A stretch of DNA of 64,000 nucleotides from Alphaproteobacteria bacterium (GTDB lineage: Bacteria; Pseudomonadota; Alphaproteobacteria; JAAEOK01). The DNA lies in contig JAAEOK010000001.1 of NCBI GenBank assembly GCA_024244705.1, positions 1 through 64,000 of the forward strand, read 5' to 3'. Both the position numbers and the translations under genes were made by a program. Within the stretch, counting starts at the first letter, position 1; every line of letters begins with the position of its first letter. Below the pieces are notes generated by a model. That model made no database searches. It saw only the letters and a list, made by a program, of their open reading frames with translations, and was not told the origin of the DNA. This document shows positions 13,500 to 30,395 of this stretch, piece by piece.

Positions 13500-14666
13500 C
13501 TATTTGTAGGGATCGGCCGCGTCGCGCAAGCCATCGCCGAGGAAGTTGAAGGCAAGGACGACGATGATCACCGGGACGACGGAGAACATCAGCCACGGAT
13601 AGAGCGCGACCACGTTGATGTTCTGCGCCTCGTTGAGCAACACGCCCCACGACGTGATCGGCGGCCGCAAGCCGAGGCCGAGGAAGCTCAGCGCCGTCTC
13701 GCCGAGGATCATCGCCGGGATCGACAACGTCGCGCTGGCGATCAAATTGCTCATGAAACTCGGCATCAGGTGGCGGAAGATGACGCGCCGCGGGCTGGCC
13801 CCCATCAGGACCGCGGCGGTGCAGAAATCCTCCTCGCGCAGCGCCAGCAGCTTCGAGCGTACGCCGCGCGCGAGGCCGGTCCAATCGATCAGGCCGAGAA
13901 TCAGCGTGATGCCGAAATAGATCAGTATCGGGCTCCAGGTCACCGGCAGGGCGGCCGACAGCGCCATCCACAGCGGCAGCTCGGGGAACGAACGTATGGT
14001 CTCGATGATGCGCTGGATGACCGAATCGACCCAGCCGCCGTAATAGCCCGCGAGCCCGCCGAGGATGATACCGAGGACGAAGCTGATGGTGATTCCGATC
14101 AGGCCGACGGTCAACGATATGCGGGCGCCATAGATGATTCGGGACAGCATGTCGCGGCCCAGCCGGTCGGTGCCGAGAAGGAAGAACGTGCCGTTTTCGC
14201 TCGGACAGATGAGGTGGACGTCGAGCGGGACCAGACCCAGCCACTTGTAGGCGTCGCCGCGGCAGAAGAATCGGATCGGTTCGACCTTGTCGAAATTTGG
14301 TGCGTATTCGCGCTGCAGATTGGTCATGTTCAGCTTGAAGTCGAAGCCGTAGACGAACGGCCCGACAAAGCGGCCGTCGTGGAACATGTGGACGCCCTGG
14401 GGCGGCGCATAGATGAAGCTCGTGTTGCGGGTATGGAGGTTGTACGGGGCGAGGAACTCACTGATCAGGATGCTGAAATAGAACAGCAGCAGAATGGCGC
14501 CCGAGATCACCGCCAGCCGGTGCTGCTTGAGCTTCCACCACATCAGCCACCACTGCGAGGCCATGTAGTAGCGTTCCTGTTCGGGCGTCAGGGCCTCGAC
14601 CGAAAGCGCGTCGAACGGCGCTTCCGAGACGTAGTGCTTGAGGCGGTCGTGCGACGTATCGGCCAT
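13500..14666 (-). CDS. oligopeptide-type ABC transporter permease (OppC/YejE-like)
   Basis: A 388-residue inner-membrane permease of the DppC/OppC class. It has an N-terminal helix (HRLAVISGAILLLFYFSILI), a long periplasmic stretch, then LGTDRLGRDMLSRIIYGARIS, the family's entry motif, and five helices with the EAA-type loop RHLMPSF. The ATG at 14666 overlaps the last base of the stop of the upstream permease (TGATG). Sequence open further upstream in this frame is only the shadow of that permease. It pairs with the gene at 14666-15661 and is the last gene of the operon. Confidence 0.92.
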   Translation of the reverse strand: MADTSHDRLKHYVSEAPFDALSVEALTPEQERYYMASQWWLMWWKLKQHRLAVISGAILLLFYFSILISEFLAPYNLHTRNTSFIYAPPQGVHMFHDGRFVGPFVYGFDFKLNMTNLQREYAPNFDKVEPIRFFCRGDAYKWLGLVPLDVHLICPSENGTFFLLGTDRLGRDMLSRIIYGARISLTVGLIGITISFVLGIILGGLAGYYGGWVDSVIQRIIETIRSFPELPLWMALSAALPVTWSPILIYFGITLILGLIDWTGLARGVRSKLLALREEDFCTAAVLMGASPRRVIFRHLMPSFMSNLIASATLSIPAMILGETALSFLGLGLRPPITSWGVLLNEAQNINVVALYPWLMFSVVPVIIVVLAFNFLGDGLRDAADPYK

Positions 14667-15661
14667 CAGCGGCTCCCGCCCTGGAACCGAATGCGCGGAT
14701 CGAGCACCGCCAACAGGAGATCGGAAACCAGCACGCCGACCACGGTCAACAAGGCGAGGAACATGAGGAACGACCCGGCGAGATACATATCCTGGCTGCG
14801 CAGCGCGTCGAGCAGCATCGGGCCGGTGGTCGGCAGGTTGAGAACGACGGAAACGATGGCGGCGCCCGAGATCACCTGCGGCAGAATATTGCCGATATCG
14901 GAGATGAACGGATTGAGCGCCATGCGTAGCGGATATTTGAGCAACAGGCGGGTTGCCGGCAGGCCCTTGGCACGGCCGGTGGTAACATATTGCTTCTGCA
15001 GCTCGTCGAGCAGGTTGGCCCGCAACCGGCGAATCATGCTCGCCGTCCCCGAGGTGCCGATGACGATGACCGGGATCCATAGATGTTCGAGGATCGAGGC
15101 GATCTTGCCCCACGACCACGGCGCACCGATGTATTGGTCGTCCATCAGCCCGCCGATCGAAGTGCCGAAATAGACATTGCCGATGTAGAGCAGAACAAGG
15201 GCGAGCAGGAAGTTGGGCGTCGCCAAGCCGATGAAGCCGAGGAAGGTTAACCCATAGTCGCCCCAGCTGTATTGGTGGGTCGCTGAATAGACGCCGATCG
15301 GGAACGACACGATCCATGTGAAGACGATGGTCGCGAACGAGATGAAGAAGGTAAGCCAAAGACGGTCGCCGACGACGTCGCGAACGGGCAGGCTGTATTC
15401 GAACGAATAGCCGAAGTCGCCTTGAAGCATGCCGAAGACCCAGGTCGCGTATTGCGCCAGGAACGGCTCGTCGAACCCATATTGCTCGCGCAGAAACGCG
15501 ATCTTTTGCGGGTCGACGTTTTCACCCTGGCTTTGGAGCTCGGCGACGTAGCTCTCAAGGTAGTCGCCCGGCGGCAGCTGAATGATGACGAACACGATGA
15601 AGCTGATCGCCAGCAACGTCGGGATCATGATCAGCAGCCGATGGGCGACGTAGTTGAACAT
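14666..15661 (-). CDS. oligopeptide-type ABC transporter permease (OppB/YejB-like)
   Basis: A 331-residue permease. The start MFNYVAHRLLIMIPTLLAISF is the classic DppB/OppB N-terminus. It is followed by a periplasmic segment with the typical FLREQYGFDEP, and by the EAA loop VTTGRAKGLPATRLLLKYPL. Six helices are expected. It begins 3 bases after the stop of the substrate-binding protein gene and ends overlapping the next permease by one base, so stoichiometric expression of the pair is likely. Confidence 0.93.
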   Translation of the reverse strand: MFNYVAHRLLIMIPTLLAISFIVFVIIQLPPGDYLESYVAELQSQGENVDPQKIAFLREQYGFDEPFLAQYATWVFGMLQGDFGYSFEYSLPVRDVVGDRLWLTFFISFATIVFTWIVSFPIGVYSATHQYSWGDYGLTFLGFIGLATPNFLLALVLLYIGNVYFGTSIGGLMDDQYIGAPWSWGKIASILEHLWIPVIVIGTSGTASMIRRLRANLLDELQKQYVTTGRAKGLPATRLLLKYPLRMALNPFISDIGNILPQVISGAAIVSVVLNLPTTGPMLLDALRSQDMYLAGSFLMFLALLTVVGVLVSDLLLAVLDPRIRFQGGSR

Positions 15662-15664
15662 CGG

Positions 15665-17599
15665 CTAGTCCTTCGCCTCCGGCGGCGGCGGGAGCGGTTT
15701 GTCGGTTCCGTCGAGCCAGAACGTGTCGGGCCGGAAAATACCGAAATGGGCCCCTGGATCCCAGTTCCACAAGCCGTCCGCGGGCACATTGTGCAAACGG
15801 TTGCTGACCACCACCGGCTGCAGCACGGCGCAAACGAGTCCGATCGTGTATTGCTGATCGGCGTGGGTGGTCAGCATCTTCTGCCAGATCTCCTCGCGCT
15901 TGGTGCTGTCGACGGTGCCCTCCCACTCATGCAGCAGGTCCGCGAGCTCGACGACCTCGGTCAGGTCCGGCTTTTCACCCGCCTTACCCTTGGTCTCGTA
16001 ATATTGACCCCATTTCGGCCATTGCAGCTGCTGCTGCGTCGAGGGGGCCAATTCCGTCGGGCTCATGGCGGCCGTCGCGTTGCCGTTGTTGAGCCCCGAC
16101 CAGATCGACATGATCGTGTCGCCGGCGAAAATACGATTGCGGAACACTTCGCGCTGCGACGGTTTGGTAAACAACTTGACGCCAATCTTGCTCCAGCCGT
16201 CGGCGATGAGTTCGAGCACGTCGGTCTGCTCGGTGCTTTCGCCGGCCGTCTCGACGACGATGAAGGCCGGTTTTCCGTTCGGCAACAGGCGGGTCCCTTC
16301 GCTGTCTCGTTTGGTCAGGCCCATCTCGTCGAGAAGCGCGTTGGCGCGGTCGGTGTCGAATTGCGCCCACTTGGTCTGATATTCGGGCTTGAACAACGGG
16401 CTTTGCGGCAGGACCGTGTTGTTGCTCGCCAGGGCGAGACCGAAATAGACGACTTGATTGATTTCGTCGCGGTCGATGGCCAGCGAAAGCGCGCGCCGGA
16501 AGCGGGAGTCGCGCAGCACCTCGCGCCACGCCGGATCGTTGGCGTTGAGATTGGGAAACAGCGCCAGTTGGGCGCCGACCATTTGCGGCCACAGCCGCAC
16601 CGTGTAGTCGTTGCGCTCTTCGCCCTCCTTGAGGAAGGTGAAATTATCGAAACGGAGATAGCGCGCCTGCAGATCGCTTTCGCCGGCTCCGGTCTTGAGC
16701 GGCACCAGGGAGCTGCCGGCGATATCGACCACGACACGGTCGATGTAAGGCAGTTGTTGTCCGTCCGGATCGATCCGGTGGTAGAACGGATTGCGCATGA
16801 ATTCGAACCGCTGCGAGGGCGGGGCCGTCGCCAGCACCCAAGGCTGAAGCGTCGGCAGATCGACATTCTGATTGCGGTATTGCCGCCCTTGTTTCTGGTG
16901 CAAAGCGGCCCAATTGCGCTGGCCCTGTTTTTTGATCATGGCGGCGAGCTTGTCCGCATCCTGATACTTGGCGTGGAATTGCTTCAAATAGTGGGCGGGG
17001 CGATAGATATAGAGCGGCGAGGCGCCGGCCAAGGCGGGCAGGAAGTAGGGATTGGGGCTCGACCACGAATAGCGCACGGTGGTCTCGTCGGGGAATTCGA
17101 CCAATGGGCGTTCGCCATCGACCAACAGCGCCGGCGGCAGGCCGAACGGTGAAATCTCTTCGTTCTTCGCCATGTCCTCCCAGTAGTAACGGAAATCGGC
17201 GCTGGTGAAGGGGTGGCCGTCGGACCATTTGTGCCCGGGCCGGAGCTTGAGCGTGAACGCGCGGCCGTCCTCGATATCGACCGCTTCGAGGATATCGGGA
17301 ACGATTTCCAATTCGGGGGTATAGGTGACCAGACGGGCATACCCGTAGACGGTCATGATCCGGGTATCCTTCGCCGCCCCCATCAGGGTGTGGAGCGTGC
17401 CGCCCTGACTCCCGATCGACTTGCCCTCCGCCGCCATGTCGACAACGGACGGCACCAAGGGCACCCGCTCGCTCACCGGCGGCACGCGGCCGTTGGCGAT
17501 GTCGTCACGCAAACTGGGCGTCTCCTTGAGGTCGAGCGCGGCGGCCTGACCCGGCAACGCGAGCAACATGACGACGAGCCCGATGGTTATTCTTTTCAT
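15665..17599 (-). CDS. ABC transporter substrate-binding protein, family 5
   Basis: A 644-residue periplasmic solute-binding protein. The N-terminus [21 protein letters not shown] is a clear signal peptide. Family 5 hallmarks include LKLRPGHKWSDGHPFTSADF and RRALSLAIDRDEINQ. The size is at the upper end of the family, close to YejA-type proteins, which bind peptides. The ATG overlaps the stop of the ATPase gene by 4 bases. The ligand is not known; since it is embedded in a glycan operon, an oligopeptide or a glycosylated or muropeptide-like ligand are both possible. Confidence 0.92.
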   Translation of the reverse strand: MKRITIGLVVMLLALPGQAAALDLKETPSLRDDIANGRVPPVSERVPLVPSVVDMAAEGKSIGSQGGTLHTLMGAAKDTRIMTVYGYARLVTYTPELEIVPDILEAVDIEDGRAFTLKLRPGHKWSDGHPFTSADFRYYWEDMAKNEEISPFGLPPALLVDGERPLVEFPDETTVRYSWSSPNPYFLPALAGASPLYIYRPAHYLKQFHAKYQDADKLAAMIKKQGQRNWAALHQKQGRQYRNQNVDLPTLQPWVLATAPPSQRFEFMRNPFYHRIDPDGQQLPYIDRVVVDIAGSSLVPLKTGAGESDLQARYLRFDNFTFLKEGEERNDYTVRLWPQMVGAQLALFPNLNANDPAWREVLRDSRFRRALSLAIDRDEINQVVYFGLALASNNTVLPQSPLFKPEYQTKWAQFDTDRANALLDEMGLTKRDSEGTRLLPNGKPAFIVVETAGESTEQTDVLELIADGWSKIGVKLFTKPSQREVFRNRIFAGDTIMSIWSGLNNGNATAAMSPTELAPSTQQQLQWPKWGQYYETKGKAGEKPDLTEVVELADLLHEWEGTVDSTKREEIWQKMLTTHADQQYTIGLVCAVLQPVVVSNRLHNVPADGLWNWDPGAHFGIFRPDTFWLDGTDKPLPPPPEAKD

Positions 17600-19485
17600 T
17601 CTGCGGCCTCCCTGAGTGAACCGTCATCGGCGGCACGGACCTGGTGGCCGTCGCCGAGATCGATCATTCCTGGCAAATGCGAGCTGTCAATCGTGAACGG
17701 CGGCGCCCACGCGGATGGGTCCGACGTTCGTCCTTCGACGACGGCCTCGAAGTCTAACGGATGATTGAGGTCAGGATCGGGCACGGCGGTAAGCAGCGCC
17801 TTGGTATAAGGATGAATCGCTTCGCGGAAGAAGCGATCTCGGGGCGCGACCTCGACCAGGTTGCCGGCACACATGACGGCGATGCGATCCGCGATGTATT
17901 CGACCACGGCCAGATTGTGCGAGATAAACAGATAGGTCAGGTCCAGCTTTTCCTGGAGGTCCTTCAACAGGTTGAGGATCTGCGCCTGAATCGAAACGTC
18001 GAGCGCGGAAACCGGCTCGTCGCAGATCAGTAGATCGGGCTGTAAAGCCAGCGCGCGGGCAATCCCGATCCGTTGGCGCTGGCCGCCCGAAAAGCTGTGC
18101 GGGTAGCGGTTGAGGAATCGCGGATCGAGCCCGACCAACTCCATCAATTCGCGAACCGTCGAGCGCCGGTGGCGTTCGTCGCCGGTGCGATGGATGATCA
18201 GCGGTTCGCTGACGATATCGTACACCGTCATCCGCGGATTGAGCGAACCGAAGGGATCCTGGAAAATGAACTGGATCTTTCGCCGGTAAGGCTGCCGCGA
18301 CCCGCCGTCGAGGCGAAGCAGGTCGACCAGACTGCCGCGGTCGTTATAGATCGCCTCGCCGCTGTCCGCGCTGATCGCGCCCATGATCATCTTGCTGACC
18401 GTGGTCTTGCCGCTGCCGCTCTCGCCGACCAGGCCCAGGCATTCGCCGCGCTCGATTACGAACTCGACATCGTTGACGGCGCGGATCGCGTTGTCGGACT
18501 TGGACAGCACGCCGCCCTTGCGGATATGAAAGGTCTTGCCGAGTCCGGTCACCCGCAGCAGTGGCTCGGCCTTGTCGGCGGTCGCCGGCCATGGCTCCTT
18601 TGCGGCCAGCAGGTGGCCGGTTTCGACGACCTTGATTTCGCGCAAAGGCTGGAGCCGCTCCCCGGGCGCCATCTCGAATCGCGGAACCGCGTTGAGCAGC
18701 GCCTTGAGATAGGGGTGGCCGGGGTTCTCGAAAATGTCCTCGACCGTGCCCCGCTCCATGACCTCGCCGTGGTACATCACCACCACCTCCTCGGCGACAT
18801 TGGCGACCACGCCGAGGTCGTGGGTGATGATCAGCACCGCCATGCCCAGTTCCTTCTGCAGGTCGCGCATGAGCTTCAGGATCTGGGCCTGGATGGTGAC
18901 GTCGAGCGCGGTTGTCGGTTCGTCGGCGATCAACAGCGCCGGCCGGCATACCAGCGCCATCGCGATCATGGCGCGCTGGCGCAATCCGCCGGAGAGCTCG
19001 AAGGGATAGGTCTTGAGGGCGCGGACCGGATGAGGGAAGCCGACCAGGCGCAGCATGTCGACGACCATTTCATCGGCTTGTTTGCGGTCGCATTCGCGAT
19101 GGAGCATCAGCGCCTCGCCGACCTGGTCGCCGACGGTGTGCAGCGGCGACAGCGAAGTCATCGGTTCCTGGAACACGATCGAAATGCGACCGCCGCGGAT
19201 GTCGCGCATCGCGGCGCTCTCGGGATCGAGCTGCGCGATGTCGACGACGTCGCCGTGGCGCAGCGGGTCGCGGAACAGGATCTTACCGCCGCGGATGCGG
19301 CCATTGGTCGGCAGGATGCTCATGATGCACTGCGAGACCACGCTCTTGCCCGACCCGGATTCGCCGACCAGCGCGACCGTCGTCCCCGGCCGCACGCGGA
19401 GCGAAATGCCGCGGACCGCGTCGACCCAGCCGCCGTGGACGTTGAAGCCGACCTTGAGGTCGCGGATTTCGAGGAGCTCGGTCAT
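17596..19485 (-). CDS. fused dual-domain ABC transporter ATPase (YejF/GsiA-like)
   Basis: A 629-residue cytoplasmic ATPase with two complete ABC domains. Domain 1 has Walker [13 protein letters not shown], signature [14 protein letters not shown] and Walker [13 protein letters not shown]. Domain 2 has [27 protein letters not shown] and [12 protein letters not shown]. Both carry the C-terminal oligopeptide-transporter extension ([28 protein letters not shown]). It energises the permeases at 13500-15661. It starts by a 4-base overlap with the small PH-like gene and couples into the binding-protein gene the same way. Confidence 0.94.
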
Positions 19486-19976
19486 CGGGCCTGATCTTCC
19501 GACATATCGATGCCGAGTTCACTGAAATTGCTGATCGTCGCCGGCGTCAAGACAATCCCGTTCTGCCGCGCCGCGCGCGCCGCTTGCTGCGCAATTTCAT
19601 CAAACCCCTCGAGGGTCGACTCCACGCAAACTTGCCCTGCTCCCCCCTTCAGGACCAGCTGCATCCAGCCTCCCGCTTGGTCACGCCGCGTCGAAAAGTA
19701 ACTCAGCCTGACCTCTTCGACATCTTTCCAGCGCAAATTAGCGCCTCTTGCGCCCGAGGTCGATATGCCTTCTTCGTCGACGGCAATCGTCGTTTTTACC
19801 CGCTGCAGGACGCGAAAGCCGAAGATCGCGAAGAAGACGAAGAGGCCGCCGAAGATAATGGCCCCCGCCGGATGGCCGCCCGCCATCGCCAAACCGATGC
19901 CGGCGATAACCAGCCCAAGCGCCGCTCGGGTCAGATCGCCGCGGACGACCGAAATGGGATAGCGAAACGTGCTCAC
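19482..19976 (-). CDS. small membrane protein with PH-like domain
   Basis: A 164-residue protein with two close hydrophobic segments near the N-terminus (LGLVIAGIGLAMAG and IIFGGLFVFFAIFGF) followed by a soluble part of about 110 residues (TIAVDEEGISTSGA, LRWKDVEEVRLSYF) that resembles bacterial PH-like domains. The start is a GTG at 19976 that overlaps the deacetylase stop by 4 bases (GTGA); it ends with the same kind of overlap on the ATPase. The role is unknown; position suggests a membrane adaptor between glycan enzymes and transporter, but that is inference. Confidence 0.72.
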   Translation of the reverse strand: MSTFRYPISVVRGDLTRAALGLVIAGIGLAMAGGHPAGAIIFGGLFVFFAIFGFRVLQRVKTTIAVDEEGISTSGARGANLRWKDVEEVRLSYFSTRRDQAGGWMQLVLKGGAGQVCVESTLEGFDEIAQQAARAARQNGIVLTPATISNFSELGIDMSEDQAR

Positions 19977-20767
19977 GAAGCGAAAAGCTGCGACGCGCGG
20001 CGGAACCGCGCCGATTGATGGCGGTCGAGGAAACTCAGCAATTCGGCGAAGAATTGCCAGGCGTCGGCACCATGAACCAGATGATGGGTGAGCAATCCGG
20101 TCGGTTCGTCCGGATCGGCGCGGCCGGTGCGCCGGGCGGCCAAGTGAGCGATCACCTGCTGGATCGCCGCCGCCGCGCCGACGAACGGGCGGCTGTCGGT
20201 GAGGTCTCCGCGGCGGCCGTCGCCGGCGGGCCGTTTCCAGTCGACGACGTCGACGTGGGCATTGATCTCGCGGAGCCGCGCCACTGGTTCCGGACGGCGC
20301 CGTGCGGCAAACCGCGACAGACCGCGATAGCCGATCTCGGGCAGCAACGGCACCAGCGATGGCGCGATCCGGTTCCACGGCGGCACCAGGACCGGCAGCA
20401 CACGATCGCCGAACCGGGCGCCAAGTTGCTCGTGGCCGGTGGCGAGGTCGGCGAGCAGATACGGCGTCGGCCGCGACAATCCCAATTCGCTGCGCTTTTC
20501 ATGCGGCGCCGCCATATTCTGGTGGGCATAGCCGTGTTGCAGAATTTCGACATCGACCCCGTCCAGGGCGTCGGCGAGGCTGGAATCGATCTTCGCCGGA
20601 ACCACCGCCAGCGCGACCGGCACCCCGGTCTTCGACGATAGCGACAACAATTGGTCGAGCGCCGGGCCGGCGAGGTGGGCATCGTCGTCGCGCCACCAGA
20701 ACTCGGCGATGCGGCCATCGTCGCGCCACCGTTCGAGTTCGCTATCGAGATCGTGCCAATCGCTCAC
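19973..20767 (-). CDS. polysaccharide deacetylase-like protein (CE4 type)
   Basis: A 264-residue protein with the marks of the CE4 fold. The metal/catalytic acids are in FWWRDDDAH (Asp27-29), the metal histidines in HGYAH (His78, His82), a PPWN motif follows near residue 130, and LLTHHLVHG is the C-terminal histidine motif. Such enzymes remove N- or O-acetyl groups from sugars. No signal peptide is visible, so it may act in the cytoplasm on a lipid- or nucleotide-linked precursor. The GTG at 20767 overlaps the upstream glycosyltransferase stop by 4 bases. Confidence 0.8.
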   Translation of the reverse strand: MSDWHDLDSELERWRDDGRIAEFWWRDDDAHLAGPALDQLLSLSSKTGVPVALAVVPAKIDSSLADALDGVDVEILQHGYAHQNMAAPHEKRSELGLSRPTPYLLADLATGHEQLGARFGDRVLPVLVPPWNRIAPSLVPLLPEIGYRGLSRFAARRRPEPVARLREINAHVDVVDWKRPAGDGRRGDLTDSRPFVGAAAAIQQVIAHLAARRTGRADPDEPTGLLTHHLVHGADAWQFFAELLSFLDRHQSARFRRASQLFAS

Positions 20768-21909
20768 GGTCGCTCCGCCAGCCAACCTTTTACCAAACGC
20801 GCACTGGTCGGCATGCCGCTCAGATCGACCTTCGGCGGCTTGAGCGGCGGGGCGGCAAGCGCGCGATCGATCGCCGCCGCGAGATGTTCCGCGGTCAAGT
20901 CCGATTCGGCAACGATCTGCACCCTGCCGCGCTCGGCGAGGACGCGAGCACGGGTCGATTGCTCGGTCTCGCCGCACCCGGCAAAGGGCACGACAATGGC
21001 CGGCGTCTCGGTCGACAGGAGGTCCATCACCGTGTTGTATCCGGCCTGGGAGACCGATACCGCGGCACCGGCCAAGAGCCGGCGGAAATCCGGCCGCGCC
21101 CGTTCGACGATCGTTCCCGCGGCGGCGTGCGCACGCAATTCATCGACTTCCGTCTCGCTCATATTGTGGCCGGCGAGCAGACGCCATGTCTGGCCCCGTG
21201 CCGCCGACAGCGGCCGCGCGGCGATCGCCGCCTGGAGCAATGCCATACCCACCGCGCCTCCGCCGGCGGAGACGACGATCTCCCGACGAGCGGCCGGCCT
21301 GGGGCGGCGTTGGGTCGCCGCCATGTAACCAGTATAGAAGACCTTTTTCCCGATTCGATCCGCTTCCGGGAAGCTCGATTCGAGCGGAATGAGATCGGGG
21401 TCGCCGTGAACCAGGACGGCGTCGAACTGTTCCAGGACGCGGCGGACGGTATCCGCGTTGCGCTCGGCGGAGCGCTCCTGCTGCACGTCGCGTATCGACG
21501 AGATTATCAGCGGACGGGGCGCCCGCGCGGCGGCGGCGTCGAGCAGCGGATCGAGCTCGAATCTCATCATCCAGCGGCCGAACGGAAAGGTCTCGACGAT
21601 CAACGCGTCGGGCTCGATATCGGCGAACAACGCCAGCAGGCTGTCGCGTCTGGCGGCGCGGAACCGGTCGTCGAGGGGCTGCCCGTCGCCATCGACCAAG
21701 GTGCGGAAGGTCATGTCGGCGGCCCGCAACGGTGCCAGTTGGTGAATCCGGACATTGCCGGTGCCGACCGCCACGACCGCCATCCCGCCGGTGATCAAAT
21801 CGACCTCGATGCCGGCGCGGTCCAAGGCGAGGGCGAGCAACTCCGCCCGTTTGTAGTGTCCGATGCCCAGCAAGTGCTGGACATAGATCATGGCCCGCGC
21901 CGTGTTCAT
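20764..21909 (-). CDS. GT28/COG4671-like glycosyltransferase
   Basis: A 381-residue glycosyltransferase of the MurG/GT28 fold. It begins MIYVQHLLGIGHYKRAELLALALD-like (His and Gly of the N-terminal donor loop) and has the C-terminal GT28 block SQAGYNTVMDLLSTETPAIVVPF followed by GCGETEQSTRA. The start ATG at 21909 overlaps the histidine phosphatase stop by 4 bases. It is a distant paralogue of the gene at 24889-26112. It likely transfers a sugar from a nucleotide donor to a lipid or glycan acceptor; neither is known. Confidence 0.82.
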   Translation of the reverse strand: MNTARAMIYVQHLLGIGHYKRAELLALALDRAGIEVDLITGGMAVVAVGTGNVRIHQLAPLRAADMTFRTLVDGDGQPLDDRFRAARRDSLLALFADIEPDALIVETFPFGRWMMRFELDPLLDAAAARAPRPLIISSIRDVQQERSAERNADTVRRVLEQFDAVLVHGDPDLIPLESSFPEADRIGKKVFYTGYMAATQRRPRPAARREIVVSAGGGAVGMALLQAAIAARPLSAARGQTWRLLAGHNMSETEVDELRAHAAAGTIVERARPDFRRLLAGAAVSVSQAGYNTVMDLLSTETPAIVVPFAGCGETEQSTRARVLAERGRVQIVAESDLTAEHLAAAIDRALAAPPLKPPKVDLSGMPTSARLVKGWLAERP

Positions 21910-22499
21910 GTCTCGACCAAGGGCAGGTTGAGGTGGCCGATACGCGGCCGGCCGCCGTCGTCGATATCGAAGGCGTGCGCCGCCGCCCAGGCCATCTTGT
22001 GTGGCGGTTTGCCGCGCATATCCCACCCGCTGGCCAGGGCAAAGATGGCGCGAATGACCCCCTTGTGGGCGACGGCCAGGGTCGGCGTACCGGCAGCGGC
22101 GATATCGGCGAGCCAGGAGCCGACCCGGACCTGAACCTCGCGCGGGCTCTCCCCGCCATGCGGGCGGAAGTCGAGGCCGCGATCCTCGTTGGCGCGGGCG
22201 GTTTCCCCGCCGCGGCGCCGGATGTCGGCCAAGGTCAGGCCTTCCCACGCGCCCCAGTGCATTTCAGCGAGCCGCGCATCGGTCGCCAGCGGCTCGGGCG
22301 CGCCAAGGAGACGCGCCGTCTCGACGGCCCGCACCAGCGGGCTCGAGATCCAGGCGAAGTCGGCCAATTCCGCCGGCACCCGCCACCGGCCGACCTCGCC
22401 CCGGCCGCCGTCGCTGAGCGGCGTGTCGCGGCGCCCCTGAATCCGACCGGCCTCGTTCCACGCCGTCGGACCGTGACGAATCAGCGCGACCCGGGTCAT
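21906..22499 (-). CDS. histidine phosphatase family protein
   Basis: A 197-residue phosphoglycerate-mutase-like phosphatase. The phosphohistidine motif is LIRHGPTAWNEAGRIQG near the N-terminus. The acid residue is in LAEMHWGAWEGL and the second histidine is in LAVAHKGVIRAI. It overlaps genes on both sides by 4 bases inside a run of glycosyltransferases, so it may act on a phosphosugar such as a mannose or heptose phosphate intermediate; a cobalamin-type (CobC) role is less likely because no cobalamin gene is present. Confidence 0.88.
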   Translation of the reverse strand: MTRVALIRHGPTAWNEAGRIQGRRDTPLSDGGRGEVGRWRVPAELADFAWISSPLVRAVETARLLGAPEPLATDARLAEMHWGAWEGLTLADIRRRGGETARANEDRGLDFRPHGGESPREVQVRVGSWLADIAAAGTPTLAVAHKGVIRAIFALASGWDMRGKPPHKMAWAAAHAFDIDDGGRPRIGHLNLPLVET

Positions 22500-23641
22500 G
22501 CCGCGTGCCTGACGAGACCGCGAAGATGCCGGTCGAGGATCTCGGCGGCGCGGCTTATGTCGTGGCGTGAGGCGACGTGGTCGCGGGCCGAACGGCTCAT
22601 CCGGCGGCGGCGCGCCGGGTCCGCGACGAGGCTGGTGACGGCGTCGGCGAAGGCATCGGCGTCACCCACCGGGGTCAAGATCGCCGAACTCCCGGTGACG
22701 ATATCGGGCACGCCGCGGGTGTCGCCGGCAACGACCGGAAGACCGGCGGCCTGGGCTTCCAGGATTGCCATCCCAAAGGCCTCGCCCACGGCCGGCCAGA
22801 GGAACATATCGCCGGCGGCATAGATCGCCGGCAGCGCGTCGGCGGCGAGGGCGCCGGCGAAATGGAGCCGGTCCTGTGGTAGGGCGCAGAACAGGTCGCG
22901 GACCGCGCCGCCCGCCGGACCGTCGCCGACAATCAGCGACTGCCAGGGCGTCTGCCGGCACTCGGCGAGCGCCGCCGCCAACAGCTCATAGGAGGCGAAT
23001 TTGTCGCCGCCGCGCATCATGGCGACGGTCAGCAGCCATGGCAGCGCCGGGTCGATGCCGTAGCGCCCGGCAACAGCGGCACGGTGGCGGTCGCGGTCGC
23101 GCGACGCGGCGGCATAGGGGGCGGCATCGAGGAACGGCGGCAGCACGGCGACCTTTTCGATGTCGACGATATCGGGCAGGCAAATCAGGTCGTCGCGGTT
23201 CAAGGCGAACAAGACCGCGGCGCGGCGCATGGCCTCGATGGTCGCGCGATGACCGGGTTCCCAAGCGCCTCCGGCTCGCTTCGGCGAATGCGAGGCCTCG
23301 GCCGCGACATAGGGAATGCCGAGCCCGTCGGCGACCGCCGGGCCGATCCAATCGGGCGCCTTGTAATAGACGTGATAGGTGAACCACAAATGCGGTCTTT
23401 CGCCGGGCGGGCGGGCGCGGTAACGGCGGACCAGCCGCGCCGCCAGCGCCGCCCCGACCCGCTGCAAGCGGTGCTGGCGTTCGCCGTCGCCGCTCGGTTC
23501 CCAACTGCGATAGGCGGTCGCCAGTTCGACATCGTGGCCGGCCAAGGCGAGCGCGTCCATCAACAGCCGCGACATCCGCCGATCCCCCGACGGCACCGGG
23601 TGGCGGGGCGATTTCAGCGGCGCATAGAATGCGATGCGCAT
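22496..23641 (-). CDS. GT4 glycosyltransferase
   Basis: A 381-residue GT-B enzyme of family 4. The start MRIAFYAPLKSPRHPVPSGD contains the glycine-rich acceptor loop, and the C-terminal donor site is PAVGEAFGMAILEAQAAGLP followed by VAGDTRGVPDIV. The ATG at 23641 lies 28 bases inside the end of the preceding glycosyltransferase gene, which I prefer over upstream starts because it opens exactly at the conserved N-terminus. It is part of the 11-gene operon. The donor sugar is unknown. Confidence 0.88.
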   Translation of the reverse strand: MRIAFYAPLKSPRHPVPSGDRRMSRLLMDALALAGHDVELATAYRSWEPSGDGERQHRLQRVGAALAARLVRRYRARPPGERPHLWFTYHVYYKAPDWIGPAVADGLGIPYVAAEASHSPKRAGGAWEPGHRATIEAMRRAAVLFALNRDDLICLPDIVDIEKVAVLPPFLDAAPYAAASRDRDRHRAAVAGRYGIDPALPWLLTVAMMRGGDKFASYELLAAALAECRQTPWQSLIVGDGPAGGAVRDLFCALPQDRLHFAGALAADALPAIYAAGDMFLWPAVGEAFGMAILEAQAAGLPVVAGDTRGVPDIVTGSSAILTPVGDADAFADAVTSLVADPARRRRMSRSARDHVASRHDISRAAEILDRHLRGLVRHAA

Positions 23642-24879
23642 CCCGATTCTCCGCCGGGCAAGTTGAACTGCGCGGCCAATTGGTCGCATCCGGTTTCGCA
23701 GGAGAACCGGTCACGCAGCCGGCGCTGGGCTTTTGCCGCCAAGTGCTCGCGCAATGCGGGCTCGCGGATCAAACGGATGAGGCCGTTGGTCAGCGCCGCC
23801 ACATCATCGGGCGCGACCAGCAAGCCGTCGCTGCCGTCCTCGATCAGTTCGGGGATCGCGGCGACGTCGCTGCCCAGGCAGGCGAGGTTTTGGCTTTGCG
23901 CTTCCATCAGGACGTTGGGCAAGCCGTCGCGGTCGCCGTCGTCGGCGATCCGGCTGGCGAGGACGAAGAGGTCGGCTTGGCGATAGGCATCAAGCACCGA
24001 ATCCTGTGCCTGCGGGCCGCGCCAGTCGATGCGCGCGGCGATCCCGAGATCGGCCGCCTGCGCCTTGAGCGCAGCCAGCAATTCACCATCGCCGACATGG
24101 ACGAAGCGCCAGGCGAGGTCCGCCGGCAACGCCGCCAGCGCCCGCAACAGGGTGTCGTACCCCTTTTTCGCCACCGCCCGGCCGACCGACAGCACCACCG
24201 CCGGATCGTCCGGGTTGCATCCGTCGCGGCCGCCGAAGCGGGCGGGCGGCGCCGGAAAGCGATCGAAATCGAGCCCGTGATAGACGAGCCGAACCTTGGC
24301 CGGGTCGGGGGCCAGCGCCGCCAGGTGGGTGGCGCCGAAACCGGTGCAGGTGACCAACCAGTCGAGATCGGCGAGCTTCTCTCGAATCTCCCAATCGGGC
24401 GTCGTCCAGATATCTTTGGCGTGGGCCGAGCAACTCCACGGCCGGCCGCTGAGGCGCGCCGCATAGCGGGCCACCGACGCCGGCGTATGCAGGAAATGGG
24501 CGTGCAGCCGCTCGATCTCGGGGGCCAGCTCATGGGCCAGGACCAGGGCCTGGCCGAACCGCCGCACGCGATTGCTCGAGCGGTCCCGGGCCAGGTCGGC
24601 GCGCCACATGCGGTGGGCGGCGCGATAACCGGGGCGACCGCGCAACGCCAGCCAGGCGCGCCATACCCGCGCCGGGTCGTCGCCCAGGTATTCCGGCAGA
24701 TAGGTCACCGGGGCCGTGATCTCGTCATGGACCGGGTGGGTCGCCGGATCCGTGGGCCGGCGCAGCGAATAGATTTGGATGTCGAGGCCGCGGCGCTCGA
24801 GGCCTCTTATTTCCTGAGCGATGAACGACTCCGATAGCCGGGGATATCCCTTCAGAACGAAGGCGACAGGGCCACCCAT
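23614..24879 (-). CDS. GT4 glycosyltransferase (colanic-acid WcaL-like)
   Basis: A 421-residue GT-B enzyme. The N-terminal KGYPRLSESFIAQEIRGLE is typical of the EPS/colanic-acid glycosyltransferase group (WcaL, AmsK). Further marks are HAHFLHTPASVA, SAHAKDIW, VGRAVAKKGYDTLLRAL and the donor-site run DGLPNVLMEAQSQ. The GTG-ATG pair at 24882/24879 gives two adjacent starts; I use the ATG. It lies 9 bases after the stop of the upstream gene. It probably builds a surface polysaccharide or glycolipid. Confidence 0.88.
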   Translation of the reverse strand: MGGPVAFVLKGYPRLSESFIAQEIRGLERRGLDIQIYSLRRPTDPATHPVHDEITAPVTYLPEYLGDDPARVWRAWLALRGRPGYRAAHRMWRADLARDRSSNRVRRFGQALVLAHELAPEIERLHAHFLHTPASVARYAARLSGRPWSCSAHAKDIWTTPDWEIREKLADLDWLVTCTGFGATHLAALAPDPAKVRLVYHGLDFDRFPAPPARFGGRDGCNPDDPAVVLSVGRAVAKKGYDTLLRALAALPADLAWRFVHVGDGELLAALKAQAADLGIAARIDWRGPQAQDSVLDAYRQADLFVLASRIADDGDRDGLPNVLMEAQSQNLACLGSDVAAIPELIEDGSDGLLVAPDDVAALTNGLIRLIREPALREHLAAKAQRRLRDRFSCETGCDQLAAQFNLPGGESGCASHSMRR

Positions 24880-24888
24880 CACGCCGTC

Positions 24889-26112
24889 TCAGGCCCGTTG
24901 CCGGGCGGGCGGAGTCTTGGTCCGGGCCCGCGATCCCAGGATACGGCCGACCTTTTCGCAAATGTCCGGGAGGCCATCGAGCAACCCGGGCGGCATCGCC
25001 TGCGCCGGCGGTTGCTGCTCGGAAAATCCGCGGATCGCGGCGGCCATGACATCGGGATCGACGCACCGCGCCTCGTCGAGCGTGCGGACAAGGCCGAGCG
25101 CCTCGGCGCGCGTGGCGCGCAGCGCCTGTTCGCGGCGGGGGACGACGCGCGGCACGATTATCGCCGGTTTGTTGAACGACATGATTTCACAGAACGTGTT
25201 GTAGCCGCCCATCGAAACGATGCCGGCGGCATTGGCCATGAGCACCTCGACATGCGAATCGAAGGTGAGCGTTGTGACCCGGTCGAGGCGCGCGCCGCGG
25301 CGGCGGAAATCGCTTTGCAGTTCCGGTGCCATGAAGGGTCCGAATACGATCATCGCGCCGTACGGAATATCGGCGTCCGATTCGTAGGCCGACAGCACCC
25401 AGTCGATCAACGGGCCGCCATCGCCACCGCCGCCCGGCGTCACCAGGATGTAGGGCGCCTCGGGTATCTCGGGCATCGCCGAGCGCGGCGGCGCGAGGGG
25501 GACCGAGCGCCTGAGGTAGCCGGTATAGGCGACCTTTTTGCGCACCGTGGCCGGCAGATCGAGGCCTTCCAACGGGTCGCAAATCTCGGGTGCGCCATAA
25601 ATCCAGATCTCGTCATAGAGCCCGTCGAGGGCCGGCAGCACATTCTTCCCCTTCCATTCCGGGACCAGGCCGTCGGGATCGTCGAGAACGTCCCGCAGAC
25701 CGAGCACCAGGTGGGTGCCGCGCTTCTTCAGGTCGTTGAGGGTCTCGGTGACTTCGCCGCGCAGGCCGAGCGGTTCCTTGTCCATGATCAACATGTCGGG
25801 ATCGAAGATGCGCGCGGTGTGCGAAATGATCGACGCCCGCATGTCGAGGGTCTGATGGGTGTCGATGTGGAGGCTGAGCGAGGTGTATTCGCCGTTGCGC
25901 AACTTGATGATGCCGGGGATGCGGACGAAGTCGACGCGGGCACCGAAATCGAAGCTGCCGATGATCGGCGAACCCGAAAGGATCAATATGGACAAGCCCT
26001 TGTAACGCTCGACGAGGGCATGCGCGATGGCGCGACAACGACGCAGATGGCCGAGCCCGAAACTGTCGTGACTGTAGATCAGGATGCGCGCATCCTGCAG
26101 GCGGTCGGTCAT
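24889..26112 (-). CDS. COG4671-like glycosyltransferase, first gene of operon
   Basis: A 407-residue GT28-fold protein. The opening ILIYSHDSFGLGHLRRCRAIA and the C-terminal SMGGYNTFCEIMSFNKPAII are those of the uncharacterised glycosyltransferase group COG4671. It is a distant paralogue of the gene at 20764-21909. It is the promoter-proximal gene of the long minus-strand operon and is divergent from the ABC gene at 26262, with about 150 bases between them. Confidence 0.82.
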   Translation of the reverse strand: MTDRLQDARILIYSHDSFGLGHLRRCRAIAHALVERYKGLSILILSGSPIIGSFDFGARVDFVRIPGIIKLRNGEYTSLSLHIDTHQTLDMRASIISHTARIFDPDMLIMDKEPLGLRGEVTETLNDLKKRGTHLVLGLRDVLDDPDGLVPEWKGKNVLPALDGLYDEIWIYGAPEICDPLEGLDLPATVRKKVAYTGYLRRSVPLAPPRSAMPEIPEAPYILVTPGGGGDGGPLIDWVLSAYESDADIPYGAMIVFGPFMAPELQSDFRRRGARLDRVTTLTFDSHVEVLMANAAGIVSMGGYNTFCEIMSFNKPAIIVPRVVPRREQALRATRAEALGLVRTLDEARCVDPDVMAAAIRGFSEQQPPAQAMPPGLLDGLPDICEKVGRILGSRARTKTPPARQRA

Positions 26113-26261: not shown

Positions 26262-28922
26262 ATGCGCGATTCGGCTCTCGAGCCATCGATCTTCAAGTTC
26301 ATCTTCCGTTACAGCAAGAAAGAGCAGATCTTCGTAACGCTGATGACGGGGCTCATGTTCCCGATCCTCTATTACGCCCTCGAACTGCCCAAGATCATCA
26401 TCAACGAAGCCATCGGCGGCACCGATTTCCCGACCGATCTGCTCGGCGTCGAATTGACCCAGGTCCAGTTCCTGATGGTGCTGTGCTTTGGCTTCCTGGC
26501 CTTGGTGTTGATCAGCGGCGGGCTCAAATACTACGTCAACGTCTATCGCGGGCGACTCGGCGAACGCATGTTGCGGCGCCTCCGGTTCGAGCTTTACAGC
26601 CGCGTGCTGCGTTTCCCGCTGCCCCATTTCAAACGGCTGTCCTCGGGCGAAATTATTCCGATGGTCACGGCCGAGGTCGAGCCGCTCGGCGGCTTCATCG
26701 GCGATGCCCTGGCGCTGCCGATGATGCAAGGCGGCACCCTCGTCACCTACATGTTCTTCATCTTCATCCAGGATTTCTGGCTCGGATTGGCCGCGATCTC
26801 GCTCTATCCGTTCCAAGTTTATCTGATCCCGAGGCTGCAACGGAAAGTCAACCTGCTCGCCAAGGAGCGGGTGCGCAACGTGCGCAAGCTCTCCGATCGG
26901 ATCGGCGAATCGGTGTCCGGGGTGACCGAGATCCACGCCAACGACGCCTCGCGTCTGTTGCGCGCGGACATCGCCAACCGTCTCAACACGATCTACGACA
27001 TTCGCTACGAGCTGTTTCGGCGCAAGTTCTTCATCAAGTTCCTCAACAATTTCCTGGGTCAGCTGACGCCCTTTTTCTTCTATTCGATCGGCGGCTATTT
27101 CGTGATCGGCGGGGAATTGTCTTTCGGCGCCCTGGTCGCCGTTATCGCCGCTTACAAAGATCTCGCCGCACCCTGGAAAGAGCTGCTCCAGTTTTACCAG
27201 ATCAAGGAAGACGTCCGCATCAAATACGAGCAGGTGGCCGAGCAGTTCGAACCGGAAGGAATGCTCGAAGGCGAGCTGCAGGATTTGGAACCGGATCCGT
27301 TGCCCAATCTTCATGGCAAATTCGAGGCGGCAAACGTTCAGCTTTCCGAAGACGGCCGCGTCTACCAGGTCGCCGGCGCGACCTTCGAGATCGATACCAC
27401 CGATCACGTCGCCATCGTCGGCGGCGGGGGCTCGGGCAAGGAGGAGCTGACGATGTTGATCGCCCGCCTGTTGGCGCCGAGCGGCGGCGCGATACGGGTC
27501 GGCGACGAACGCCTGCAGGACCTGCCGGAATCGGTGACCGGCCGCCGCATCGGTTATGTCGGCCCCAATTCCTTCATGTTCGCGGCGACCGTTTTCGACA
27601 ACCTGACCCTCGGTCTCAAGCACCGGCCATTGTTGCCGCCGACCTACGAGGGCGAAGCAGCCGCGGCGCGCCAGACCTACATTCGCGAGGCGCAGTTCTC
27701 GGCGAATATCGACGACGATCCAACGGCGGACTGGATCGACTACGGGTCCGCCGGCGCGGATGGTCGGGCGGAGCTTTACGCCCGTATCGGTGAGGTCCTC
27801 GAGATCGTCGATCTCAGTGGCGACATTTACAGCTTCGGTCTGCGCGGCACGGTCGACCCGGTTGTGCATCCGGAGCTGGCGGGCAAGTTTCTCGAGGCGC
27901 GGTCCGCCCTGCGCGATCACCTAGCCCAGCCGACGATGCGGCAGATGGTCGAACCGTTCGATGTCGAGGCCTACAACACCAATGCGACGTTGGCCGAAAA
28001 CCTCCTGTTCGGGACCCCAACCGGCACCGCCTTCGATGTCACCAATTTGGCCGACAATGCCTACGTCAAATCGGTTCTCGACGCCGAGGACCTGACCCAT
28101 GATCTGCTCAGGATCGGCTATCAGGTCGCCGAAACGATGGTCGAACTGTTCGCCGGCCTGCCGGCGGGCCATGAGTTTTTCGCCCAATACAGCTTCGTCG
28201 ATTCCGACGAGCTGCCCGAGATTCAGGGGCTGCTGAACCGCGTTCCCGCCGATCGCCTCGACGAACTCAAGCCCGAGGAAAGGACGCGGCTGCTATCGTT
28301 GCCCTTCGTCCTCGTCGAACGGCGCCACCGCCTCGACCTTATCAACGACAGCATGAAGGCCCGCATCCTCAAGGCGCGGCATTACTTTGCCGAAAACCTG
28401 CCCGAAGACCTCCGCGGCGAGATCGAGTTCTTCGACGCCTCGGCCTACAACGCAGCGGCCACGATCCAGGACAACATTCTGTTCGGCAAATTGGTCTACG
28501 GACAAGCGCAGGCCGAAGCCAAGGTCGGTGAAATGATTCGCACGGTCGTTGACGAACTCGATCTTGGCGAGGAAGTTGTCTTCGTCGGACTCAATTTCGA
28601 CGTCGGCATCGCCGGGTCACGCCTGTCCGCCGCGCAGCGCCAGAAACTGGCCATCGCGCGCAGCTTGCTGAAGCAGCCCGACCTATTGGTCGCCAACGAA
28701 GCCACCGCTTCGTTGGATGGGGCGGCGCAGACGCGTATCCTCGACGCAATTCTTAGGACCCGCGCCGGACAGGGCGTAATCTGGGGTCTTCACCGAGCGG
28801 GTCTCGCCCGCAGTTTCGATCGGGTCATCGTGATGGCCAATGGCCGGGTCGTAGAACAGGGGGCCGTCGCCGAATTGGACAAGCAAGGGACGGCATTCTT
28901 CAAACTCGTAGAGGCCGAATAA
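26262..28922 (+). CDS. aberrant ABC exporter-like protein with large helical insertion
   Basis: An 886-residue membrane/ATPase fusion. Residues about 15-300 are an ABC exporter membrane domain with several hydrophobic helices. The nucleotide-binding part is unusual. Walker A is GGGGSGKEE (387-395), with Glu instead of Ser/Thr after Lys. The Q-loop region reads VGPNSF without Gln. The signature is LSAAQ instead of LSGGQ, and Walker B is LLVANE with Asn for Asp. The H-loop His844 is kept. About 290 extra residues separate the Q-loop region from the signature, and the segment ATVFDNLTLG (442) recurs as ATLAENLLFG (575) and ATIQDNILFG (733). The ATG at 26262 follows a GGGGACAGGG stretch. A cNMP-binding gene follows by 22 bases. 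Substrate unknown; ATPase activity may be weak or regulated. Confidence 0.85.
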   Translation: MRDSALEPSIFKFIFRYSKKEQIFVTLMTGLMFPILYYALELPKIIINEAIGGTDFPTDLLGVELTQVQFLMVLCFGFLALVLISGGLKYYVNVYRGRLGERMLRRLRFELYSRVLRFPLPHFKRLSSGEIIPMVTAEVEPLGGFIGDALALPMMQGGTLVTYMFFIFIQDFWLGLAAISLYPFQVYLIPRLQRKVNLLAKERVRNVRKLSDRIGESVSGVTEIHANDASRLLRADIANRLNTIYDIRYELFRRKFFIKFLNNFLGQLTPFFFYSIGGYFVIGGELSFGALVAVIAAYKDLAAPWKELLQFYQIKEDVRIKYEQVAEQFEPEGMLEGELQDLEPDPLPNLHGKFEAANVQLSEDGRVYQVAGATFEIDTTDHVAIVGGGGSGKEELTMLIARLLAPSGGAIRVGDERLQDLPESVTGRRIGYVGPNSFMFAATVFDNLTLGLKHRPLLPPTYEGEAAAARQTYIREAQFSANIDDDPTADWIDYGSAGADGRAELYARIGEVLEIVDLSGDIYSFGLRGTVDPVVHPELAGKFLEARSALRDHLAQPTMRQMVEPFDVEAYNTNATLAENLLFGTPTGTAFDVTNLADNAYVKSVLDAEDLTHDLLRIGYQVAETMVELFAGLPAGHEFFAQYSFVDSDELPEIQGLLNRVPADRLDELKPEERTRLLSLPFVLVERRHRLDLINDSMKARILKARHYFAENLPEDLRGEIEFFDASAYNAAATIQDNILFGKLVYGQAQAEAKVGEMIRTVVDELDLGEEVVFVGLNFDVGIAGSRLSAAQRQKLAIARSLLKQPDLLVANEATASLDGAAQTRILDAILRTRAGQGVIWGLHRAGLARSFDRVIVMANGRVVEQGAVAELDKQGTAFFKLVEAE

Positions 28923-28944: not shown

Positions 28945-29400
28945 ATGGGATTGTCGGAAGAGGTCGAACTGCTGCGGAACATTCCGCTGTTCTCGAAGAT
29001 CGAGCCGGCCAAGCTAAAGCTGCTGGCCTTTACCAGCGAGCGCCTGGTCTTTGCCGATGGCGAAGAACTGTTTCACCAGGGCGATTCCGGCGACGCCGCC
29101 TATATCATCATCGCCGGGGCCGCCGATATCGTCGTCGACGGTGACGCCGGTCCGGTCGTTGTCGCCCAAGTTGGCCGCAACGACATCGTTGGTGAAATCG
29201 CCATCATTTGCGACGTGCCGCGCACGGCAACGGTAAAGGCGAACGCGGAGCTCGAGACGCTGAAGATCTCGAAGGATCTATTCTTCCGGCTGATCAAGGA
29301 ATTTCCGGAAATGTCGATCGAGATCATGCGCGAGCTGGCCGAGCGGCTGGAGAAAACGACCAATCAGCTGCGCGACGCGCTGACCGCGGCGGACCGCTAG
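28945..29400 (+). CDS. stand-alone cyclic-nucleotide-binding domain protein
   Basis: A 151-residue single cNMP-binding domain (CAP_ED type). Key blocks are FSKIEPAKLKLLAF, the GDSGDAAYIIIAGA turn, the phosphate cassette GRNDIVGEIAIICDVPRTATV (with Glu, Arg and Thr in the usual places) and a C-terminal helix. There is no DNA-binding helix-turn-helix, so it is not a CRP-type regulator. It begins 22 bases after the ABC gene and probably forms part of its complex or regulates it. The window also encodes a class III cyclase at 10545. Confidence 0.9.
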   Translation: MGLSEEVELLRNIPLFSKIEPAKLKLLAFTSERLVFADGEELFHQGDSGDAAYIIIAGAADIVVDGDAGPVVVAQVGRNDIVGEIAIICDVPRTATVKANAELETLKISKDLFFRLIKEFPEMSIEIMRELAERLEKTTNQLRDALTAADR

Positions 29401-29412
29401 CCGGACCGCGGC

Positions 29413-29907
29413 ATGAGCCGGCTCGACAGCGCCATCCGCCGCCTCGAGGCCCAGCGCCATTGCCTCAATCGGGCTGCCCGCATGATCGACGGCGTCAGCG
29501 GTCCGGTCCTCGAATTCGGTCTCGGCAACGGGCGCACCTTCGATCACCTGCGGGAGTTGTTTCCCGATCGGGAAATTTTCGTCTTCGACCGGCATGTCGA
29601 GGCGCACCGCGAATGCATCCCCGACGACCGCCACATTGTCGTCGGCGATTTCCGCGATACGCTTGCCGGCGCCGGCGCGCGCATCGGCGCGCCCGCCGCC
29701 CTGGTCCATTGCGACGTCGGCAGCGGCCGGGCGGAAGAAGACCGGCGCCTGGCCCGATACCTTGCCGGCGCGCTGTCCGGACTGGTCGCGCCGGGCTGCG
29801 TCGTGGTCGCCGATCAGGCCCTCGACAGTGACACGCTGGTTGCCATCGACCCGCCGTCGGAGGTCGAGCCGAGGCGCTATTTCATGTACCGCGCGGTGCC
29901 GACGTGA
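29413..29907 (+). CDS. small SAM-dependent methyltransferase (paralogue 1)
   Basis: A 164-residue compact Rossmann protein. VLEFGLGNGRTFDHLRELF is motif I and REIFVFDRH ends strand 2; VVGDFRDTL is motif II-like. The size and pattern fit the small Methyltransf_17-type family. It begins 12 bases after the cNMP-binding gene and overlaps its own paralogue downstream by 4 bases (ATGA). The methyl acceptor is unknown, and whether it retains catalytic activity cannot be told. Confidence 0.82.
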   Translation: MSRLDSAIRRLEAQRHCLNRAARMIDGVSGPVLEFGLGNGRTFDHLRELFPDREIFVFDRHVEAHRECIPDDRHIVVGDFRDTLAGAGARIGAPAALVHCDVGSGRAEEDRRLARYLAGALSGLVAPGCVVVADQALDSDTLVAIDPPSEVEPRRYFMYRAVPT

Positions 29908-30395
29908 GCCGTCTGCAGCGAATGATCGACCGCTTGACCACGCAACGCGCCTGCTTGGAATTCGCCGCCGGGGACATCGCCGCCCGCGACGGACCGGTGC
30001 TCGAAATCGGGCTCGGCAAGGGCCGGACCTATAGCCATTTGCGAGCCCTCTTGCCGCGGCGGGAAATCTTCGCCTTCGACCGCGAAGTCCATGCCCCGGC
30101 CGATGCGCAACCGGACGCGGCGCATATCCTGCTCGGCGATTTTCGCGAGACCCTGCCGGCGGCGGCGGCGGTCATCGGCGCGCCGGCCGCGCTCATCCAC
30201 GCCGATATCGGTTCCGAAAAACCGGCGCGCGATGCCAAGCTTGCCGCCGCTATCGCGCCTCACCTCGCGGTCTTGGCGGCGCCCGCCGCACTGGTTCTGT
30301 GCGACCGCGCCCTTCCGGTGCCGGCCTGGACCCGGCTGCCACTGCCCAAGGGCGCCGGTGACTGGGAGTATTTCGTTTACCGCGTGCCGCAATGA
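29904..30395 (+). CDS. small SAM-dependent methyltransferase (paralogue 2)
   Basis: A 163-residue tandem paralogue of the preceding gene: VLEIGLGKGRTYSHLRALL, REIFAFDRE and LLGDFRETLP align block for block, and the start MSRL is shared. The ATG lies within the stop overlap of paralogue 1. It is the last gene of the unit starting at 26262 and is convergent, by 15 bases, with the glycosyltransferase at 30411. Confidence 0.82.
   Translation: MSRLQRMIDRLTTQRACLEFAAGDIAARDGPVLEIGLGKGRTYSHLRALLPRREIFAFDREVHAPADAQPDAAHILLGDFRETLPAAAAVIGAPAALIHADIGSEKPARDAKLAAAIAPHLAVLAAPAALVLCDRALPVPAWTRLPLPKGAGDWEYFVYRVPQ

Follow-up and report, generated by a model that had tools for sequence, protein, structure and literature searches.

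The window (the whole stretch of 64,000 nucleotides that was analysed) holds at 26262-28922, on the plus strand, an intact reading frame for a protein of 886 amino acids, with its ATG at 26262 and its stop codon at 28920-28922. The layout is that of an ABC exporter of the ABCB/MsbA type: a transmembrane domain (TMD) is followed by a nucleotide-binding domain (NBD) fold, as found by Pfam (PF00664 ABC_membrane, E 3.4e-20; PF00005 ABC_tran, E 5.8e-15, split) and by structural alignment. The membrane domain begins near residue 10, and the Pfam scan found no C39 peptidase domain in the protein. In the full AlphaFold model (pLDDT 84.3 for the whole protein) the predicted NBD fold is complete, with 239 of 239 residues of the ComA NBD aligned at 1.8 Å and Z 29.6. 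The parts of the gene are as follows.

26262..28922, plus strand: ABC-exporter-like protein of 886 aa, predicted pseudo-ATPase (open reading frame, translation, Pfam ABC_membrane and ABC_tran, family alignment)
26289..27245, plus strand: transmembrane domain, residues 10-328 (AlphaFold helices, column entropy)
27294..27548, plus strand: N-terminal half of the NBD core, residues 345-429, with the degenerate Walker A at 27420-27443
27549..27947, plus strand: U1, residues 430-562, with the Q-loop strand, the ATVFDNL helix and predicted helical subdomain copy 1 (hhalign against U2, U3 and canonical Q-loop segments)
27948..28421, plus strand: U2, residues 563-720, predicted extra copy 2, with an AENLLFG motif (hhalign; isolated-insert model)
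28422..28682, plus strand: U3, residues 721-807, predicted copy 3, with the signature helix at its end and LSAAQ at 28623-28637 (canonical-segment alignment)
28683..28919, plus strand: C-terminal half of the NBD core, with Walker B LLVANE at 28683-28700

How widely does such a protein occur? The protein is intact and belongs to a conserved family. At a threshold of E < 1e-60 the protein is present in 17 of 58 sampled genomes of Alphaproteobacteria, and a profile search found it in 147 of the 387 sampled genomes of its class. Metagenome-assembled genomes of Betaproteobacteria also encode the family, and 329 plasmid records, mostly of Rhizobium and Sinorhizobium, carry the family protein or its membrane domain. 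When the membrane domain alone was used as query and contig-end fragments were set aside, the matches listed were of two sizes, either about 880-1100 residues (with one of 1386) or about 360-425 residues, and among these matches there was no canonical exporter of about 600 residues between the two. No literature directly treating the family was found, and its members are membrane proteins that are widespread in bacteria and apparently undescribed. MsbA2 of S. meliloti (SMb21191) was rejected as being one and the same gene with the S. meliloti orthologue: the orthologue lies at about 841.7-844.4 kb of pSymB, the MsbA2 operon near 938 kb (PMC3687685).

Catalytic motifs in the window copy and in the family

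The motifs of the window copy were assigned by alignment to canonical exporters from its own genome. Walker A reads GGGGSGKE, in which Lys393 is retained and Ser/Thr394 is replaced by Glu; Gln435 of the Q-loop is replaced by Pro, and the A-loop aromatic by an acidic stretch. The signature is LSAAQ (residues 788-792) with Ser789 retained, and His844 of the H-loop is retained as well. An initial annotation, made from the sequence of this copy, had pointed to Glu after the Walker A Lys (GKEE), a missing Q-loop glutamine and the LSAAQ signature, all of which the alignment confirms; the A-loop change is an addition to that list. It had also described a Walker B ending in ANE; Asp812 of LLVANE is indeed Asn, but the motif is not wholly lost, since the catalytic Glu813 is kept ("NE").

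Is this a single copy of a normal exporter in decay? That four motifs are damaged together in the window copy would fit decay, but the orthologues in those 147 of 387 genomes have the insert and the damaged motifs too, and their frames are intact and their partner gene is conserved. This rules out a copy decaying on its own, and we give the idea practically no credence. The initial annotation had held that orthologues lacking the insert or keeping normal motifs would mark a decaying copy; the orthologues retain the insert and none regains the motifs, so neither came true.

The motif columns were counted in 66 distinct members, many of them from related rhizobia and so non-independent, with 65 sequences in some columns. 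At Walker A, Lys occurs in 27/66 and Ser/Thr in 8/66, and the two never occur together (0/66). The Q-loop Gln is retained in 12 of the 66; at the signature, Ser is found in 26 members, the glycines in 5 and 11, and Gln in 53. Walker B has Asp in 15/65 and Glu in 24/65, with the Asp-Glu pair in only 2/65, and the H-loop His is present in 15/65. By variability these columns rank from the 25th to the 98th percentile and behave like average columns. For example, the copies of S. meliloti and R. leguminosarum lack the Walker A Lys and Ser/Thr, the Gln, the Walker B Asp and Glu, and the His, all at once. The counts show that, as far as sequence motifs can tell, the equipment for ATP hydrolysis is degenerate across the family and its positions drift. 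The public annotation of the family, simply "ABC transporter ATP-binding protein", is misleading.

There is some order left at the site. An acidic residue (Glu or Asp) follows the position of the Walker A Lys in 50 of the 66 members, and this fair conservation indicates that the site is not pure drift. In the window copy Lys393 of Walker A, the catalytic Glu813, Ser789 of the signature and His844 of the H-loop are all retained, so that a weak binding or turnover of ATP may be possible there. Might the protein then be a slow or binding-driven ABC exporter, in which ATP is still bound, the cyclic-nucleotide-binding subunit regulates a low residual ATPase, and the product of the neighbouring glycosyltransferase cluster is exported? 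The complete NBD fold speaks for it, as do Lys393, Glu813, Ser789 and His844 in the window copy and the basic-acidic pair found at 393-394 in 36/66. On the other hand, many members have Ala or Gly in place of the Lys, or lack the glycine-rich loop, or have a Walker B with neither Asp nor Glu, and relatives consisting of the membrane domain alone exist. We consider this explanation somewhat unlikely.

A threefold helical subdomain

The second peculiarity of the NBD is an insert of about 290 residues, in which the initial annotation had suspected a tandem triplication of the helical subdomain. The insert is real and is found in every full-length member of the family alignment. Modelled alone, it has a pLDDT of 92.9.

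In the single sequence the repeat signal is weak (U2-U3 0/500 shuffles; U1-U3 p 0.010; U1-U2 p 0.23), whereas with family profiles it is strong. For the profile comparison the units were cut as residues 427-560, 556-722 and 714-815, and hhalign matched unit to unit at E 1.5e-5, 3.4e-7 and 1.1e-13, the raw scores of the unit matches being 37-85, while column-shuffled controls did not exceed 20; the block 530-600 matched 690-760 at E 2.6e-18. Slices of the membrane domain and the NBD core did not match the units in hhalign, barring one weak match of U3 (to 808-886, E 0.0025; both slices contain residues 808-815). What does the repeated unit correspond to? U3 can be aligned with the Q-loop-to-Walker-B segment of canonical exporters along 91-94 columns, at E values down to 4.8e-16, and the start of U1 aligns to the same segment over 23 columns. 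For the isolated insert, Foldseek gave no fold match below E 0.6, and in a second structural comparison the best seven matches were all ABC exporters, at Z 3.4-4.7, low but consistent; some other known fold was rejected on these two results. In the isolated-insert model, residues 569-711 align to residues 426-498 of MsbA and to six other exporters, over a span from just past the Q-loop to the signature helix. U2 is thus the predicted match for the helical subdomain and signature helix of ABC exporters. Taken together, the profile matches, the alignments to the canonical segment and the structural alignment of the insert with exporters show, at the level of profiles and predicted structures, that a unit of Q-loop strand, helical subdomain and signature helix is present three times, which supports the triplication.

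Mean column entropy among the 66 members is lowest in the TMD (1.40, with 1.7-2.3 in the other regions), the best-conserved region of the family. The NBD core has 2.09 in one half and 2.31 in the other, while U2 (1.89) and U3 (1.73) are better conserved than the core into which they are built.

The conserved partner, the gene neighbourhood and the membrane-only relatives

The gene lies between two groups of neighbours, of which the upstream one is mostly divergent.

10545..11903, plus strand: class III nucleotide cyclase, at the distal end of the cluster (Pfam Guanylate_cyc, E 1.8e-10)
13500..19485, minus strand: oligopeptide-type importer of two permeases, an SBP_bac_5 protein and a fused ATPase (flank comparison)
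20764..21891, minus strand: second GT28-like glycosyltransferase (neighbourhood comparison)
21906..22499, minus strand: histidine phosphatase (neighbourhood comparison)
22496..23653, minus strand: GT4 glycosyltransferase (neighbourhood comparison)
23614..24882, minus strand: GT4 glycosyltransferase (neighbourhood comparison)
24889..26112, minus strand: GT28-like glycosyltransferase, the divergent neighbour (neighbourhood comparison)
28945..29400, plus strand: stand-alone Crp-like cyclic-nucleotide-binding (cNMP-binding) protein of 151 aa, without a DNA-binding domain (Pfam cNMP_binding, E 2e-18)
29413..29907, plus strand: Methyltransf_17 SAM methyltransferase, the next gene in many loci
29904..30395, plus strand: second Methyltransf_17 copy (neighbourhood comparison)

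The cNMP-binding gene is the next gene on the same strand in all 62 of the 62 loci with enough sequence, and in 7 loci its domain is fused in frame to the C-terminus of the ABC-like protein. These gene arrangements show an obligate pairing of the cNMP-binding gene with the gene for the ABC-like protein. Its phosphate-binding cassette, GEIAxLCDVPRTATV, has the Arg in 62/63 and Glu or Asp in 62/63 members, being less typical in the fused clade. The retained cassette residues mean that conservation holds for the sensor site but not for the ATP site.

The divergent upstream block (two GT28-like and two GT4 glycosyltransferases and the phosphatase) is largely retained in 15 of 24 distinct loci. Beyond it, the importer was found in all 11 flanks reaching that far, also in S. 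meliloti and R. leguminosarum, and in 4 of the 11 (L149, L153, L154, L157) a class III nucleotide cyclase closes the importer block. As a separate observation, the importer-glycosyltransferase-phosphatase block at 13500-24882 is syntenic with S. meliloti pSymB and with R. leguminosarum plasmids. The small Methyltransf_17 genes at 29413-30395 form a tandem pair behind the cNMP gene, overlapping end to start.

Does the protein borrow a functional site from another one? It might be half of a heterodimer of the kind known from TM287/288 or TAP, in which a canonical exporter half encoded elsewhere lends the one functional site. Degenerate halves are common among heterodimers (PMC7756269), and the genome does encode other exporters. 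However, no canonical exporter half adjoining the ABC-like gene was recognised in the conserved block, the degenerate residues are unconserved, and, as both the Walker side and the signature side are damaged, pairing with a canonical half would not yield a normal site; we think a heterodimer very unlikely.

Some relatives of about 400-435 residues (one annotated as 497) are about 40-50% identical to the TMD and have no NBD. On plasmids of roseobacters and Azospirillum, and in several genomes, they stand in copper-resistance operons behind a copper-oxidase, copB or azurin-like gene (L115:9773-11011, L116:9773-11266, L117:9770-11029, L118:7773-9077, L140, L141, L143, L144), and near them no NBD, insert or cNMP gene was found. 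In a tree with distant, partly unsuitable outgroups the membrane-only clade is monophyletic with support 0.95. In these copper-operon proteins the extra N-terminal helix has a conserved W-x-H-x3-H, which may be a metal site. There is also a membrane-only orthologue of 345 residues in a reduced genome of 1.6 Mb, G287 (L145:2197-3276). It lies beside what reads as the same GT28/GT4 block, whose glycosyltransferases were identified from sequence, and is flanked on the opposite side by zapA-like and transketolase-like genes; it has lost the ATPase domain together with the insert, and the cNMP gene is missing as well. No second case in the order of G287 was found, and the in-cluster form is represented by that one genome. 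Judging from this one natural deletion, the membrane domain may still have a function where the cytoplasmic part is missing.

Another possibility is that the protein transports nothing and serves the glycosyltransferases and methyltransferases as a scaffold or receptor in the membrane. It would account for the tight synteny with glycosyltransferases, an ATPase that judging from its motifs does not work, and the presence of a cyclic-nucleotide sensor. But the TMD is the part conserved best, and copper operons, among whose annotated genes there are no glycosyltransferases, retain it by itself. We regard a pure scaffold as distinctly unlikely.

The proposed gate and its comparison with known systems

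Then what could such a protein do? The initial annotation had suggested "a regulated or low-activity transporter". The first adjective is backed by the invariable cNMP-binding partner. The second is probably too mild, because the motif columns vary freely, no intact Walker A exists, and there are relatives without the ATPase domain; a role without ATP hydrolysis probably fits the sequences better than low-activity transport does.

The reading we prefer, while stopping just short of calling it probable, is that a former ABC exporter acts as a ligand-gated gate in the membrane and does so without hydrolysing ATP, the family having descended from a homodimeric ABC exporter and given up the hydrolysis. 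Alignments and models do show the frame in which this reading is set: the TMD is kept best, the predicted NBD fold is kept, the motifs have drifted, the helical subdomain is triplicated and the cNMP gene is paired. Beyond this frame, two ABC-like chains would form one membrane gate. The triplicated helical stack might be the docking surface that joins the cNMP-binding subunit to the membrane helices, and ligand binding, not ATP turnover, would open or close the path. The cargo passed or positioned may be what the neighbouring glycosyltransferase cluster makes, a glycoconjugate or a lipid-linked product. By analogy, the protein would be a ligand-gated flippase, channel or facilitator with a logic comparable to that of CFTR and SUR. 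A more specific version, which we put forward tentatively as a possible one, is that the ABC exporter fold has become an ATP-free, cyclic-nucleotide-gated channel or flippase, in which the NBDs and the helical stack would be only a mechanical linkage from sensor to gate, and lineages without need for control would shed the cytoplasmic part and keep the membrane domain.

ABC exporters are textbook ATP-driven machines. If the proposal is true, the family would show the conversion of a pump into a gate, and it makes the function of an exporter membrane domain without ATP directly testable. The family occurs in over a third of the sampled genomes of the class, among them those of S. meliloti and R. 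leguminosarum, both models of symbiosis.

Compared with canonical homodimeric exporters such as MsbA, Sav1866 and PCAT1, the predicted fold is alike, full-chain alignments giving Z of about 28 over about 420-450 residues; the family differs from them in its lost catalytic motifs, its three predicted copies of the helical subdomain and its obligate cNMP partner. Altered Walker B, signature and Q-loop are shared with the degenerate-site exporters (TM287/288, TAP, TmrAB, ABCC, CFTR, SUR), some of which are channels or channel regulators (PMC7756269). These keep one intact site, and their degenerate site is conserved without further divergence (PMC7756269), whereas in the present family neither side is canonical and the motif residues are drifting. 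The copper-operon relatives, about half or somewhat less identical in the TMD as given above, differ from the family in having no NBD, insert or cNMP gene and in their extra N-terminal helix. The pairing of an ABC exporter with a cNMP-binding domain is known from HetC-type exporters and from the TIGR03896 bacteriocin-transport cNMP proteins. In HetC the cNMP-binding domain is N-terminal and essential in vivo, and it bound ppGpp, not cAMP (PMC10986499); the ligand of an exporter-linked cNMP domain therefore need not be cAMP. HetC has a C39 peptidase and requires its ATPase Glu (PMC10986499), while the family described here has no peptidase, a degenerate ATPase, and a cNMP domain that is a separate gene or C-terminal.
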